DNA of 64,000 bases from Flavonifractor sp. An112 (GTDB taxonomy: Bacteria > Bacillota > Clostridia > Oscillospirales > Oscillospiraceae). This document shows, one piece after another, positions 24,482 through 28,554 of this stretch (positions are counted from its first letter, which is position 1; each line of letters starts with the position of its first letter). The position numbers and the translations under genes were made by a program. The notes below the pieces were generated by a model. That model was not told where the DNA came from. It searched no databases and saw only the letters and a program-made list of their open reading frames with translations. Where the stretch lies: positions 124,001-188,000 of the forward strand of contig NZ_NFLU01000004.1 in assembly GCF_002161085.1 (NCBI RefSeq), given 5' to 3'.

Positions 24482-25879
24482 TCAGGTCTTGAGGGCCCGG
24501 TAGGTGGACCGGATGAGTACGACTGCAATGAGAAAAGTCAGCAGGTCAGATACCGGCATGGAGTAGAGCACGCCGTCCAGGCCGAAAAAGCGGGGAAGCA
24601 GCAGGGCGAAGCCCACGCCGAATACCACCTCACGGATCATGGAGAGGGCAGTGGAGGCCAGGGCCTTGCCCAGGGACTGGAGGTAGATGAAGGTGCCCTT
24701 GTTGACGCAGGCCAGGATCATCATGCACAGGTAGATGCGGAAGGACTTAACGGCAAATTCGGTGTAATAGCTGCTCTCATTGGCGGCACCGAAGATGGCG
24801 ATGAGCTGGGTGGGGAGGAGCTCCACAATGAGCAGGGCTACCGCGCCTACTGCCGCCTCGGCCAGCAGCAGGTGGGTAAAGAGGTTCCTGGCCCGGTCCT
24901 TCCGCCCGGCGCCGATGTTGTAGCCCACAATGGGGATGCACCCGGCGGCAAGCCCCACGGCGATGGAGATGACGATCTGGAAGAACTTCATGACGATACC
25001 AACCACTGCCATGGGGATCTGGGCGTACTGGGTCTGGCCGAAGATGGGGTCCAGGGCACCGTATTGCCGGATCATGTTGTTAATAGCAGCCATGGCTGCC
25101 ACCAGAGAGATCTGGGACAGCAGGCTGCATACCCCCAGGGAGAGAAACTTTGCGATGACGTTCCACTGGAGGGCGAAGCAGCTTCGGTTCAGGGATACCG
25201 CCTTCATATGGCACAGGTACCACACAGCCAGGGCGGCAGTGAGGATCTGGCCCAGTACGGTAGCCACGGCGGCTCCCATCATGCCCCACTGAAAGCCGAA
25301 GATGAACACCGGGTCCAGGATCAGGTTGACCACCGCTCCCGCCAGGGTGGAGGCCATGGCAAACCGGGGGCTTCCGTCGGAGCGGATGATGGGGTTCATG
25401 GCCTGACCGAACAGATAGAAGGGTACGCCCAGGGTGATGTAGAAGAAATACTCCTTGGAGTGGAGGAAGGTCTCCTCGTTGACCCGTCCGCCGAACATGG
25501 TGAGGATAGGGTCCTGGAAGAGGAGGTAGAGGGCGGTGAGGATTAGACCGGCGGCGAGGCTGAGCACCACGGCGTTGCCAACGCTGCTGCCCGCCCGCTT
25601 GTGCTCGCCGGCCCCCAGGCAGATGCTAACCAGAGCACAGCAGCCGTCGCCGATGAGCACGGCAATGGCCAGAGCTACCACGGTCAGGGGAAACACCACC
25701 GTGTTGGCGGCGTTACCGTAGGAGCCCAGATAGGACGCGTTGGCGATGAAGATCTGGTCCACGATGTTGTACAGGGCCGCCACCAGCAGGGATATGACGC
25801 AGGGCACGGCGTACCGGGCCATCAAAGACCCGATGGAGTCGGTGACCAGGAAGGAATTGGAGCGCTGTTCCTGTTCCAT
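24482..25879 (-). CDS. MATE family efflux transporter
   Basis: 465-aa multidrug and toxin extrusion protein, an Na+- or H+-driven exporter with about 12 membrane segments. The MATE pattern is seen at the N-terminus (LMARYAVPCVISLLVAALYNIVDQIFIA, shown as VPCVISLLVAALYNIVDQIF) and in GQAMNPIIRSDGSPRFAMAS and GCIPIVGYNIGAGR. GGGAGG nine bases before ATG 25879 sets the start. It follows a 79-aa gene and is preceded by a hairpin-plus-U-tract that repeats the leader motif of that gene, so its expression is probably controlled by RNA structure. Confidence 0.93.
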   Translation of the reverse strand: MEQEQRSNSFLVTDSIGSLMARYAVPCVISLLVAALYNIVDQIFIANASYLGSYGNAANTVVFPLTVVALAIAVLIGDGCCALVSICLGAGEHKRAGSSVGNAVVLSLAAGLILTALYLLFQDPILTMFGGRVNEETFLHSKEYFFYITLGVPFYLFGQAMNPIIRSDGSPRFAMASTLAGAVVNLILDPVFIFGFQWGMMGAAVATVLGQILTAALAVWYLCHMKAVSLNRSCFALQWNVIAKFLSLGVCSLLSQISLVAAMAAINNMIRQYGALDPIFGQTQYAQIPMAVVGIVMKFFQIVISIAVGLAAGCIPIVGYNIGAGRKDRARNLFTHLLLAEAAVGAVALLIVELLPTQLIAIFGAANESSYYTEFAVKSFRIYLCMMILACVNKGTFIYLQSLGKALASTALSMIREVVFGVGFALLLPRFFGLDGVLYSMPVSDLLTFLIAVVLIRSTYRALKT

Positions 25880-25897
25880 TTCAAATGACCTCCCAAC

Positions 25898-25943
25898 AAA
25901 AGAAAGTGTGTGGCCAGTGCTGGATTTACGCCGTTGGCCACAC
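25898..25943 (-). ncRNA. Leader hairpin 1, upstream of MATE exporter
   Basis: Minus-strand hairpin with a perfect 9-bp stem GTGTGGCCA (25943-25935)/TGGCCACAC (25916-25908) and a loop containing CGGCGTAAATCC (25933-25922). The stem is followed almost at once by TTTCTTTT (25905-25898) and then GGGAGG and the MATE ATG. The same loop and tail occur in the hairpin at 26215-26271. No known riboswitch class fits. Confidence 0.55.
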
Positions 25944-25950
25944 GCTTTTC

Positions 25951-26190
25951 TTAATTCAGATAATCGCCCACCGGGCTTTGATTGTACTGCTTTATAATCT
26001 TCAGCAGGATGGAGCCGTCGGGCAGCGTATTCTCCTCCAAAATCTTATATTGGGTGCCGTTCCGCTCCAACTGCCTTTTGTAGTAGGCTACTTCCTGACG
26101 GACCGACTCTACCGCAAAGTTGTGTTCTACGCCTTCTTTCAGCTGAAAGTGCAGGGTCTGGCAAACACACGCCGCTTTGATCCGTTTCAT
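25951..26190 (-). CDS. Conserved-looking 79-aa protein of unknown function
   Basis: Small soluble protein starting MKRIKAACVCQTLHF; alternating charged residues and a KYKRQ-like helix (VRQEVAYYKRQLERN) followed by a strand-rich end (YKILEENTLPDGSILLKIIKQYN). It has no signal peptide or membrane segment. GGAGG seven bases before ATG 26190 sets the start; the ATG at 26205 is inside the ribosome binding site. I do not recognise the family. It is first in a two-gene unit with the MATE exporter, and both genes carry the same type of leader hairpin, so it may be a regulator or accessory of the exporter. Confidence 0.72.
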   Translation of the reverse strand: MKRIKAACVCQTLHFQLKEGVEHNFAVESVRQEVAYYKRQLERNGTQYKILEENTLPDGSILLKIIKQYNQSPVGDYLN

Positions 26191-26214
26191 ATAAGTTCCT
26201 CCCATTCAGTGTAT

Positions 26215-26271
26215 AAAAGAAACAACGTGCAGATATCAACCGGATTTACGCCGATGATAGCTACACGTTGT
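26215..26271 (-). ncRNA. Leader hairpin 2, upstream of the 79-aa gene
   Basis: Minus-strand hairpin at the very 5' end of the predicted transcript: outer stem ACAACGTG/CACGTTGT (26271-26264 with 26229-26222), inner stem TATCA/TGATA (26259-26255 with 26238-26234), and loop CGGCGTAAATCC (26253-26242), identical to hairpin 1. TTTCTTTT (26222-26215) and GGGAGG follow. It looks like an attenuator or protein/ligand-binding leader. Confidence 0.55.
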
Positions 26272-26277
26272 ATTTTT

Positions 26278-26306
26278 ATTATAACTTATGGGATGGGGAC
26301 ATTCAA
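26278..26306 (-). promoter_or_regulatory. Promoter of the small-protein/MATE unit
   Basis: Minus-strand TTGAAT (26306-26301), 17-bp spacer, consensus TATAAT (26283-26278). The transcription start would fall at the first base of leader hairpin 2. Confidence 0.7.
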
Positions 26307-26347: not shown

Positions 26348-28489
26348 TCAATCATCAATCTGACCATAGTCTCCCGACGGCAGCCGGTGGCCCTCCAGGG
26401 TGAACTGGCCCATGCCCAGGGCGGTTGGGAGAGAGAAGGGCTTTACCGTGCCGTCGTCAAAGCGGACGGTGATCCGGTCCCCGTCCCGGGTGGTGAGCAG
26501 GCCGGGACCGTAGCGGGCGTGGCGTACCCGGGTGCCGGGGATATAGTCCTTAGCGGCGGCGGCAAGCTGGGCGGACAGGATCGCCGGATCGGGACTTTTA
26601 CGGACAGGAGCCTTTCTTTTTGGGGGTTCTTCCTGCGGAAAGAGAAAGGAAGAAAAAGTGGAGGCCAGCTCGGGACGGCGGAAGGTCATGACCCACAGCT
26701 CCTGCCGGGCCCGGGTCATGCCGACGTAAAAGAGCCGCCGCTCCTCCTCCCGCTGGTTGATCTTCTCCTCGGTTTCGTCCTCCTTGGGGGTGGGAGGCAG
26801 CTTGGGCAGTAGTCCATCGGCCACGTCCATTAAAATCACCCGGTCGTACTCCAGGCCTTTGCTGGAGTGGATGGTGGACAGAATGAAGGGACAGTCCGGG
26901 TGGGCTGAGCCCCGGCGTACCACCTCCTCCAATTCATCCAGCCGCTGAAGCAGTCCGGCGGGGGTGGGCTCGTTGGCCCCCAGAGCTTCCAGAATGGGCA
27001 GCTTGCTGTTGTCTGCCCCCCGGTCTTCCAGGTAGGCCCCGTAACCCATGAAGTGGACGATGCGGTATACCGCCTTGTCTGCCCGCTCCTCCAGCAGGTT
27101 ATTCATGTGAGTCTGAAGAGCTTTACACTGCTTGCGGCTCCAGGGAGAGAGGGTGGAGCAGCCCGCCAGATATTCCAGCAGGGTCTCCCCGGTGGGAGAA
27201 CACTGGCTGACTGCCTCCTGGGCGGCGGCACGGCTGATGCCCGCCCCCAGCTTGTAGTATAGGTCCAGGAACAGCTCTCCGTTCCAGGGGTCCTGGGCCA
27301 GTCGGATGATGTTGGTCACATCCCGCACCACCCGGTGGGTGAAAAAGCCGCTGTCCACCTGGCGGCAGCGATAGGGGGTACCGGAGCGCTCCAGCAGGTC
27401 CATGAGGGGGAGGGCGCTGTCGTTGTCCCGGTAGAGCACCGCCGTCTCCTGATCGCAGTTCTCCGCCACCTTGGCCAGATACTGATACTGCCGCTGCCGG
27501 TCGTACACCTCTACCTGCCGGATGGCCGGGCCGTCGCCTCCGGCGGCGTGCATGGTCTTGGGGCGGCGCTGGGTGTTGAGCCGGATGAATTTGTCCGCCG
27601 CCGCCACGATCTGGCGGGTGGAGCGGTAATTCTGCTCCAGCAGCAGCACCTGAGCACCTGGATAGGTGTTCTCAAAGGAGTGGAGAGCCTGGGGACAGGC
27701 GGCCCGAAAGCCGTAGATGCTCTGGTCCTCGTCTCCCACCATGAAGAGCTGGACCTGATTCCCCGCCAGCAGGCGGATGATGGCGTGCTGGATTTGGGAG
27801 GTGTCCTGGGCCTCATCCACACACAGGTAGGGGTAGCGGCGCTGCCACTCCTGGAGAATGGTGGGATAGCGCCGCAGGATCTGGTAGGCGTAGCCCAGCT
27901 GATCGTCGTAGTCCATGAGCCGCCGTTGCCGCAGAGCTTGGTTGTAGGCCTTATAGACAGCGGGAAATTCCACCCCCTCCACCTCAACGTCGTTCAGATC
28001 GATCTGGCCGGGAAGATGGTTTTTTACATAGGTGATGGCAGTTTGAATGGCCTTGATGGTGGCCTCCGGGGCGTATTCCTGGGTGAGATTACGGCAGATC
28101 TCCCCGATGAGGGCGGCCTGCCGCCCGGTGTCCTCCAGCAGATCGAAGGCCTTCTGGTCCACCAGCTGTTCGCACCGGCGGATGATGGAGGAACATACCC
28201 CGTTGATGGTGCGGAAGGACAGCCGTTCCGCCAGCTCGGGGCCAAAGAAGGAGGCAAAGCGCTGGCGCATATCCCGGGCGGCGGAGACAGTATAGGTCAT
28301 GGTGAGGATGGACCGAGGGTCCACACCCAAGCCTAGCACCAGATAGCCGATGCGGCTCACCAGTACGGTGGTTTTTCCGCTGCCGGGCACTGCCAGCAGC
28401 AGCACCGGGCCGTCCACAGCCTGAACGGCGGCCTCCTGCTGCTTATCCAGGCACAGGCCGTAGGTTTTTTTGAATTGGGCGAAGGTCAT
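26348..28489 (-). CDS. UvrD/PcrA-like superfamily 1 DNA helicase
   Basis: ATP-dependent 3'-5' helicase of the UvrD/Rep class, 713 aa. Motifs in order: Q-motif LDKQQEAAVQA, Walker A AVPGSGKTTVLVSR, motif Ia ILTMTYTVSAARDM, Walker B YLCVDEAQDTSQIQH, motif III FMVGDEDQSIYGFRAA, motif IV EQNYRST, motif V ILSTIHSSKGLEYD and motif VI FYVGMTRARQEL. It is longer than a minimal helicase only by the C-terminal basic tail and a Tudor-like end (VRHARYGPGLLTTRDGDRITVRF) as in PcrA. AGGAG eight bases before ATG 28489 sets the start. It is probably a repair or replication-restart helicase; a full-length chromosomal PcrA may exist elsewhere. Confidence 0.92.
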   Translation of the reverse strand: MTFAQFKKTYGLCLDKQQEAAVQAVDGPVLLLAVPGSGKTTVLVSRIGYLVLGLGVDPRSILTMTYTVSAARDMRQRFASFFGPELAERLSFRTINGVCSSIIRRCEQLVDQKAFDLLEDTGRQAALIGEICRNLTQEYAPEATIKAIQTAITYVKNHLPGQIDLNDVEVEGVEFPAVYKAYNQALRQRRLMDYDDQLGYAYQILRRYPTILQEWQRRYPYLCVDEAQDTSQIQHAIIRLLAGNQVQLFMVGDEDQSIYGFRAACPQALHSFENTYPGAQVLLLEQNYRSTRQIVAAADKFIRLNTQRRPKTMHAAGGDGPAIRQVEVYDRQRQYQYLAKVAENCDQETAVLYRDNDSALPLMDLLERSGTPYRCRQVDSGFFTHRVVRDVTNIIRLAQDPWNGELFLDLYYKLGAGISRAAAQEAVSQCSPTGETLLEYLAGCSTLSPWSRKQCKALQTHMNNLLEERADKAVYRIVHFMGYGAYLEDRGADNSKLPILEALGANEPTPAGLLQRLDELEEVVRRGSAHPDCPFILSTIHSSKGLEYDRVILMDVADGLLPKLPPTPKEDETEEKINQREEERRLFYVGMTRARQELWVMTFRRPELASTFSSFLFPQEEPPKRKAPVRKSPDPAILSAQLAAAAKDYIPGTRVRHARYGPGLLTTRDGDRITVRFDDGTVKPFSLPTALGMGQFTLEGHRLPSGDYGQIDD

Positions 28490-28525
28490 ACTTGTTTCTC
28501 CTGTGGCAGATGAAGGATTCCTACG

Positions 28526-28554
28526 AAAAATGGCCGCCATTGGCGGCCATTTTT
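28526..28554. terminator. Bidirectional-type hairpin between the DtxR gene and the helicase
   Basis: AAAAATGGCCGCC (28526-28538) with GGCGGCCATTTTT (28542-28554). Ends the minus-strand DtxR-family transcript ahead of the helicase gene. Confidence 0.8.

Follow-up and report, generated by a model that had tools for sequence, protein, structure and literature searches.

The DNA analyzed here, referred to below as the window, is a 64,000-nt stretch of Flavonifractor sp. An112 (GCF_002161085.1, NZ_NFLU01000004.1 positions 124,001-188,000), and coordinates given without a locus name are those of the window. Its minus strand carries, in this order, a promoter, a hairpin (hairpin 1), a gene encoding a 79-aa protein, a second hairpin (hairpin 2), and a gene encoding a MATE family exporter. 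A preliminary description of this DNA had named these parts, and every one of them was present in its place. The promoter is of the sigma-A type (26278..26306) and consists of TTGAAT (26306-26301), a 17-nt spacer, and TATAAT (26283-26278), with 10 of 12 matches to the consensus. Hairpin 1 (26214..26271) is a full copy of the RNA element described below and lies at the predicted transcript start. It contains the 5' strand of a pseudoknot, CAAC (26267..26270, model columns 2-5), identified by covariation, of which the two inner bases double as the foot of the terminator stem; a loop core, GCGTAAATCC (26242..26251), that is nearly invariant over 228 copies; the 3' pseudoknot strand GTTG (26237..26240), which lies in the loop, is the complement of CAAC, and was identified by pair counts; and the 3' arm of a terminator-like stem (26222..26230), followed by TTCTTTTA at 26221-26214. 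The 79-aa gene (25951..26190) follows, and hairpin 2 (25895..25948), a second copy of the element with a sequence match to the same loop core, GCGTAAATCC, at 25922..25931, separates it from the MATE gene (24482..25879; PF01554, E 3.1e-31). The motif GGGAGG, found after both hairpins, is the Shine-Dalgarno sequence of each downstream gene (25889..25894 for the MATE gene).

The two hairpins share CGGCGTAAATCC with 0 mismatches, confirming the identical loop that had been reported for them. In the 2.96-Mb source genome, the exact 11-mer GGCGTAAATCC occurs at two sites, namely the two hairpins, 320 bp apart, and the reversed control pattern has 0 occurrences. The stems had been described as different; the common loop and tail hold, but a shared lower stem was missed. 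Aligned in register, the sequences are ACAACGTGTAGC (hairpin 1) and AAAGCGTGTGGC (hairpin 2), with the lower stem CGTGTRGC, which is well conserved across the family, common to both. Because these lower stems have the same sequence in register, we regard the two hairpins as copies of one element. The predicted folds of hairpin 1 (-24.3 kcal/mol, z -6.3) and hairpin 2 (-21.1 kcal/mol, z -4.2) were each equaled by 0 of 200 dinucleotide shuffles. With RNA model R1, built from 53 hairpins, the two scored 61.6 bits (E 5.7e-13, whole genome) and 57.7 bits (E 7.1e-12), respectively, and they were the only strong matches to the family models in the source genome, the same two being found with model R2, built from 96 copies. 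The next R1 matches in this genome (E > 0.001) were, among those inspected, plain terminators that lack the loop. Compared with most relatives, the window copies have weaker U-rich tails (UUCUUUUA and CUUUUGUU), and a simple terminator scan covering loops of 3-8 only listed neither hairpin.

The 79-aa protein belongs to a strongly conserved family (60 sequences), in which M1, R3, A7, C8, Q11, F15, D58, N70, and Y77 are invariant, and has no match in Pfam, NCBIfam, or PHROGs. Its AlphaFold2 model has a beta-alpha-beta-beta arrangement with a mean pLDDT of 96.8; the PDB gave no match by sequence and nothing significant by fold (best E 0.049). The distribution of the family is patchy, with homologues in 35 of 250 genomes of the bacterial family; within that sample, the other four genomes that share the window's genus have no homologue. 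A wider genome collection yielded 114 confirmed loci, of which 80 were kept, from Oscillospiraceae, Lachnospiraceae, and other Clostridia. At several 79-aa loci without a hairpin (within the range L003-L112), the next open reading frame (ORF), judged by eye, starts like a CarD-type protein.

The RNA element is about 55 nt long, and 228 distinct copies were collected from Clostridia and from further classes within the phylum. This number was obtained from the 239 rows of alignments A2, A4, and A6 by removing exact duplicates and dropping five rows that lacked the loop core or lay on the reverse strand (L011:1463-1499, L084:1917-1974 minus, both of L196, and L213:1486-1537); three of the copies come from viral contigs, and the copies are related by descent, their counts not being independent events. 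A stricter loop pattern, which dropped nine rows (four of them otherwise good), followed by de-duplication gave a set of 178 copies. At E <= 1e-6, R1 had matches in 45 of the 250 family genomes, in 31 of 345 sampled from the order, in 22 of 391 from the class, and in 4 of 299 from the phylum; these samples overlap and include the window's own genome. For two more families of the class, R2 matched 12 of 146 and 27 of 150 genomes. We restricted the counts to this threshold because the weak tail of R1 matches mixes in plain terminators; at the looser E <= 0.01, 97 of the 250 family genomes matched, chance terminators included. The loop also recurs upstream of many homologues of the 79-aa gene and, in many of those cases, again 3' of the gene. 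The recurrence of the loop 5' of homologous genes, on which the preliminary description had made its reading depend, was thus found across family, order, class, and phylum.

A scan of viral contigs matched five, three of which had identical hairpins and one of which had both 79-aa and MATE genes. For these reasons, the contigs classed as viral may be bacterial DNA. The identical hairpin is that of the IMG/VR contigs L232, L233, and L234, and the copy in L232 precedes ORFs of 64 and 98 aa, neither of which had a match in Pfam.

Across the 228 copies, the loop core GCRUAANUCC (extended, GCRUAANUCCR) is nearly invariant: U29, A30, C34, and C35 are conserved in 100% (rounded), A31 and C27 in 99%, U33 in 96%, G28 in 91%, and G26 in 88%. 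In addition, the loop contains GUUG (columns 54-57 in A2), the complement of the element's 5' end, CAAC (columns 2-5). The inner pairs of this pseudoknot are formed in nearly all copies, pair 4-55 in 227 of 228 (AU 121, GC 69, GU 36, UA 1) and pair 5-54 in 226 of 228 (CG 195, UG 20, UA 11), the exceptions being L206 (A4-C55) and L227 and L243 (both C5-A54). The outer pairs are looser, 3-56 being possible in 198 of 226 copies and 2-57 in 158 of 215, with failure in the other 57. In A2 (136 distinct rows), both inner pairs are formed in 134 of 134 rows, as A-U, G-C, G-U, or U-A at 4-55 and as C-G, U-G, or U-A at 5-54. Each inner pair is formed in 47 of 48 rows in A4 (50 distinct rows), in which 33 of the 51 rows belong to loci retrieved once the pairing had been noted. 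The loci of A6 (47 distinct rows) were all retrieved after the pairing had been proposed; here the inner pairs are formed in 47 of 47 and 46 of 47 rows, pair 3-38 in 44 of 46, and pair 2-39 in 33 of 43.

Five measures of the pairing were compared with 500 shuffles and with slid registers. Three of them, namely the percentage paired, the cells changed on both sides, and the covariation score, were equaled by 0 of 500 shuffles and in no slid register in any of the three alignments. The other two were not exceptional: 181, 44, and 57 of 500 shuffles (A2, A4, and A6, respectively) had at least as many pairs with a double change, and 41, 37, and 100 of 500 had at least as many further pair types. 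Compensatory variants of the two strands include UGAU/AUCG, CAAU/AUUG, UAAC/GUUA, AAAC/GUUU, AAUC/GAUU, and AAGU/GCUU. As a control against the inheritance of two types, the loop strand was permuted within the promoter-bearing or the promoter-less copies of A2 and A4 after thinning by identity. At 85% thinning (49 copies), the inner pairs were equaled in 0 of 1000 permutations and the outer pairs in 18-32 of 1000; at 75% thinning (15 copies), all four pairs together were equaled in 2-5 of 1000 and the inner two alone in 52 of 1000. A second hairpin variant, TCGTGYAGCAGARATGCGTAAGTCCGGATTT, was seen close 3' of the standard hairpin in L138, L144, L149, and L204, and L007 carries this variant as two copies of its own (2420-2476 and 2518-2574), in which the pseudoknot strands, AATC against GATT, are an independent compensatory form.

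The pseudoknot is short. Among 180 copies, four contiguous pairs are possible in 113, three in 39, two in 26, and fewer in 2; the copies with two pairs include hairpin 2 of the window, where pairing is limited to the inner G4-C55 and C5-G54. At this length, tertiary contacts or a ligand would be required to keep the pseudoknot together. The initial RNAalifold structure contained a 2-bp inner hairpin (26-55 and 27-54, paired in 225 and 215 of 228 copies, respectively), which may belong to the terminator state. In the 13 copies with A at column 54, the pair 27-54 is broken in all 13, and 5-54 is kept as U-A in 11. The pairing of the 5' end with the loop as a pseudoknot was missed in the preliminary description.

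The terminator-like stem covaries as well, and pairs at its foot are formed in 219 (4-80) and 211 (5-79) of 228 copies. Conservation of the stems by covariation, a further point on which the earlier reading hinged, was found in A2, A4, and A6. Together with the nearly invariant loop, the covarying stems support its claim of selection on RNA structure plus sequence-specific nucleotides. Columns 4 and 5 are able to pair either with 55 and 54 or with 80 and 79, each with covariation. Because the same 5' bases serve both, the pseudoknot and the terminator are mutually exclusive.

In 156 of 178 copies, the final 11 nt of the match include 7 or more U, compared with 3 of 178 windows placed 30 nt further on. 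At the other end, 115 of the 178 copies have promoter-like sequence at the hairpin foot, compared with 7 of 700 controls offset by 150 or 250 nt, which agrees with the earlier proposal that transcription starts there. The commonest gap from the -10 motif to column 1 is 6 nt (68 of 115), and for this reason we predict the start at column 1, the A of ACAAC. The element is thus predicted to begin at the transcription start and to end in a U-rich tail. At the thresholds used, 8 locus strands carried two copies less than 150 nt apart, 30 carried two further apart, and 102 carried one, with tandem pairs undercounted and some loci cut short; second copies below the threshold are visible by eye in L132, L138, L144, L149, and L166. 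The arrangement of the window, two copies with a gene between them, belongs to the wider-spaced class (at least 150 nt).

The genomic context of each copy was taken as the first recognized gene within 1,100 nt downstream, using tblastn with seed proteins. The 125 copies found with the RNA model, including eight loci that repeat 79-aa loci, preceded genes for MATE (77), the 79-aa protein (11), CarD (9), MFS (6), DUF2798-like proteins (4), small Cys-rich proteins (4), rubrerythrin (3), ABC (2), cytidylate-kinase-like proteins (2), UvrA (1), and another protein (1), and five had none. The distance from the hairpin to the start of the gene match had a median of 24 nt (172 assigned of 178 copies). 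Since the seed proteins come from the same loci, these assignments are contexts and not proofs of regulation. Pfam confirmed representatives of MATE, MFS, CarD, UvrA, rubrerythrin, the cytidylate-kinase-like proteins, and the ABC exporter of L135; the other ABC match, in L197, was below the Pfam cut-off. Among three DUF2798-like proteins scanned, Pfam matched that of L188 only, and those of L140 and L180 were grouped by likeness, which is weak for L140.

A later set of 47 copies gave MATE (27), MFS (5), CarD (4), 79-aa (4), DUF2798-like (1), and none (6). For cases without an assignment, Pfam identified a CarD-like protein in L270, a GHMP kinase in L242, and a HisKA protein in L262, and the ORF of L243 looks like the GHMP-kinase ORF of L242. 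The copies in L161 (1245-967 minus), L174, and L201 lie before small Cys-rich proteins (42-93 aa) without a Pfam match; in L161 and L174, a CarD-like ORF, recognized by eye, follows the Cys-rich gene, which makes a second recurring arrangement of a small gene with CarD. In L182 (1576-1893), a copy precedes a 106-aa protein without a Pfam match; inspection by eye suggests a likeness to the C-terminus of the UvrD-like helicase adjoining the window operon (26348-28540).

Judged from its sequence, this is a real, widespread, structured RNA element, in which a covarying pseudoknot competes with the element's own predicted terminator. General features of riboswitches are present, including a conserved structured RNA directly 5' of genes, conserved unpaired bases, and a putative expression platform that excludes the aptamer fold through columns 4 and 5. 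We consider it probable that the element is an orphan, terminator-embedded riboswitch candidate, acting as an ON switch for export and stress genes. Sequence analysis provided the family, both alternative pairings, the promoter-like and U-rich positions, and the gene contexts; termination, the direction of the switch, small-molecule binding, and the ligand are what we infer.

In the OFF state, the RNA would form a single long hairpin, whose lower stem CGUGURGC/GCYGCACG runs into the U-rich tail and would act as an intrinsic terminator. In the ON state, CAAC at the predicted transcript start would pair with GUUG in the loop as an H-type pseudoknot, removing the bottom two pairs of the terminator beside the U-run, and the polymerase would read into the gene. 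The ON direction is proposed because the pseudoknot would pull these bottom pairs out of the terminator. The nearly invariant loop bases GCRUAANUCC may form a pocket for a ligand that stabilizes the second state; the unpaired, nearly invariant bases of the core sit just 5' of the pseudoknot strand, where such a pocket would be expected. Since most of the downstream genes encode exporters, a toxic small molecule, or a signal that one is present, is probably the ligand. In the window, one switch would stand at the start of the operon and a second would guard the MATE gene. The suggestion in the preliminary description of an undescribed riboswitch or regulated terminator controlling drug export finds support in these results.

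The main rival is a regulated terminator in which an RNA-binding antiterminator protein encoded elsewhere recognizes the loop and holds the pseudoknot form, a possibility to which we give limited credence. A short single hairpin with a conserved loop before many unrelated genes would suit such a protein, and LoaP (PMC12691694) and ANTAR proteins (PMC8934654) are precedents, likewise acting on small leader hairpins that control a terminator. In the passages of those papers that concern the sites, LoaP/dfn recognizes a UNCG tetraloop hairpin (PMC12691694) and ANTAR proteins recognize dual hexaloops with A at position 1 and G at position 4 (PMC8934654); neither fits GCRUAANUCCR in the 228 copies, and both types of site were rejected as identities of the element. 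An unsystematic look noticed no regulator gene traveling with the element. A conserved pseudoknot, moreover, is more typical of small-molecule aptamers, and its presence here counts toward a small molecule.

The switch might instead be free of any ligand, with a slowed or drug-stressed polymerase allowing the 5' end to invade the loop, or with the 5' hairpin acting on the polymerase as a cis antiterminator. The position of the whole switch in the first ~55 nt of the predicted transcript is in line with this idea, as are targets that include proteins linked to polymerase or damage (CarD and UvrA-like). A purely kinetic switch, however, needs no nearly invariant unpaired loop bases, and second copies lie inside operons behind the first gene, as in the window and at the 30 loci with copies at least 150 nt apart. 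We therefore consider this explanation unlikely.

It is very unlikely that the RNA is a diverged guanidine-IV (mepA/GGAM-1/Gd4v) riboswitch. For the mepA/GGAM-1 class, association with MATE genes and control of terminators have been described (PMC7736828, PMC9788692, PMC11611296, PMC12186494), and the likeness, which takes in Gd4v, extends to a terminator hairpin with a conserved loop and a pseudoknot that blocks termination as an antiterminator (PMC7736828, PMC12186494). In the architecture outlined for guanidine-IV, a loop-loop pseudoknot connects two hairpins (PMC9788692), whereas the present RNA has one hairpin, with the unpaired 5' end as partner of its loop, and 26 copies stand as a single hairpin between the promoter-like foot and a MATE match within 60 nt. 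Regions 5' of SMR genes in L280, L285, L288, and L301 have two hairpins with a terminator before the gene, and we took them as putative guanidine-IV examples because the spacing in L301 agrees with that of the mutated bases described in PMC7736828. Their loops are roughly GCYGCCGRG and UAGGCC, and the latter, the terminator loop, is faintly like UAANUCC. The two loops in this order, a pattern that recovers three of the four putative examples, were found in 0 of the 275 study loci, and R2 gave no match up to E 10 at the four putative sites. Guanidine-IV membership was thus rejected on both the two-hairpin loop-loop architecture and the loop sequences.

Still less credence can be given to the proposal, raised in the preliminary description, that the hairpins are binding sites through which the 79-aa protein autoregulates its operon. 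The protein is small and very conserved, and a hairpin lies upstream (E <= 1e-4) at 45 of 110 79-aa loci, a set with a few duplicates between collections and a few loci cut short upstream. The other 65 loci have no such hairpin, 114 of the 125 hairpins found with the RNA model are not directly before a 79-aa gene, and the predicted fold of the protein, as described above, has no significant PDB match. Because hairpin and gene often occur apart, the 79-aa protein is more likely a target than a sensor. Finally, the idea of ordinary terminators or a mobile hairpin repeat with chance similarity of the loops, suggested by the plain terminators among the weak matches in the same genome, can practically be dismissed, being contradicted by the covariation of the pseudoknot and facing an invariant loop, a fixed place after promoter-like sequence, and the same gene classes across families.

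Among known RNAs, the proposed riboswitch resembles the HMP-PP riboswitch (thiS motif), described as an ON switch with its aptamer inside an intrinsic terminator stem, an unusually conserved loop, and a possible alternative pseudoknot that breaks the stem beside the U-run (PMC6478431). The two are set apart by gene context, since thiS motifs associate with thiamin-precursor genes and the present RNAs with exporters, CarD, rubrerythrin, and others; no thiamin-precursor gene was found among the downstream contexts assigned, a few copies being unassigned. The element also shares its very small size, with one hairpin and a single strand pairing with the loop, with preQ1-I and other small H-type pseudoknot riboswitches. 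In those, the invading strand is the 3' tail, whereas here it is the 5' end.

Rfam 15 gave no match at gathering score for the window hairpins or 15 further loci, and permissive scans of three stretches returned weak matches far below gathering scores, mostly to microRNA models. The putative guanidine-IV sites likewise had no Rfam 15 match (three at gathering level, L301 permissively), and for this reason the silence of Rfam is weak evidence of novelty. From these putative sites, the guanidine-IV class may be missing from Rfam 15. In the open-access literature, searched by title and start of abstract and partly among the 20 best-ranked of several hundred papers, no description of the element was found, and an unpublished, subscription-only, or supplementary account is possible; the loop letters as text were not found in that literature either. 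A survey of new noncoding RNAs in 50 genomes (PMC11109978) contains no MATE, multidrug, or efflux in the portions of its main text that were covered.

Taken together, we lean slightly toward a new class of very small, terminator-embedded riboswitches widespread in gut Clostridia, which would form a pseudoknot from the first nucleotides of the transcript, be repeated before successive genes of an operon, sense a toxic compound or drug-like molecule of host, diet, or microbial origin, and switch on CarD-type genes and genes related to repair or redox along with MATE, MFS, and ABC exporters. If this is true, the element would be an orphan riboswitch class with more than 200 copies and clear covariation, tied to the multidrug exporters of gut bacteria. 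A switch lying within about 55 nt of the predicted start and reused before successive genes would also offer an unusually compact model for the competition of a pseudoknot with a terminator, and the set of controlled genes would tie exporters to CarD-type transcription factors. To our knowledge, the natural substrates of the multidrug exporters of gut bacteria are mostly unknown, and the identity of the ligand would show what these exporters expel.
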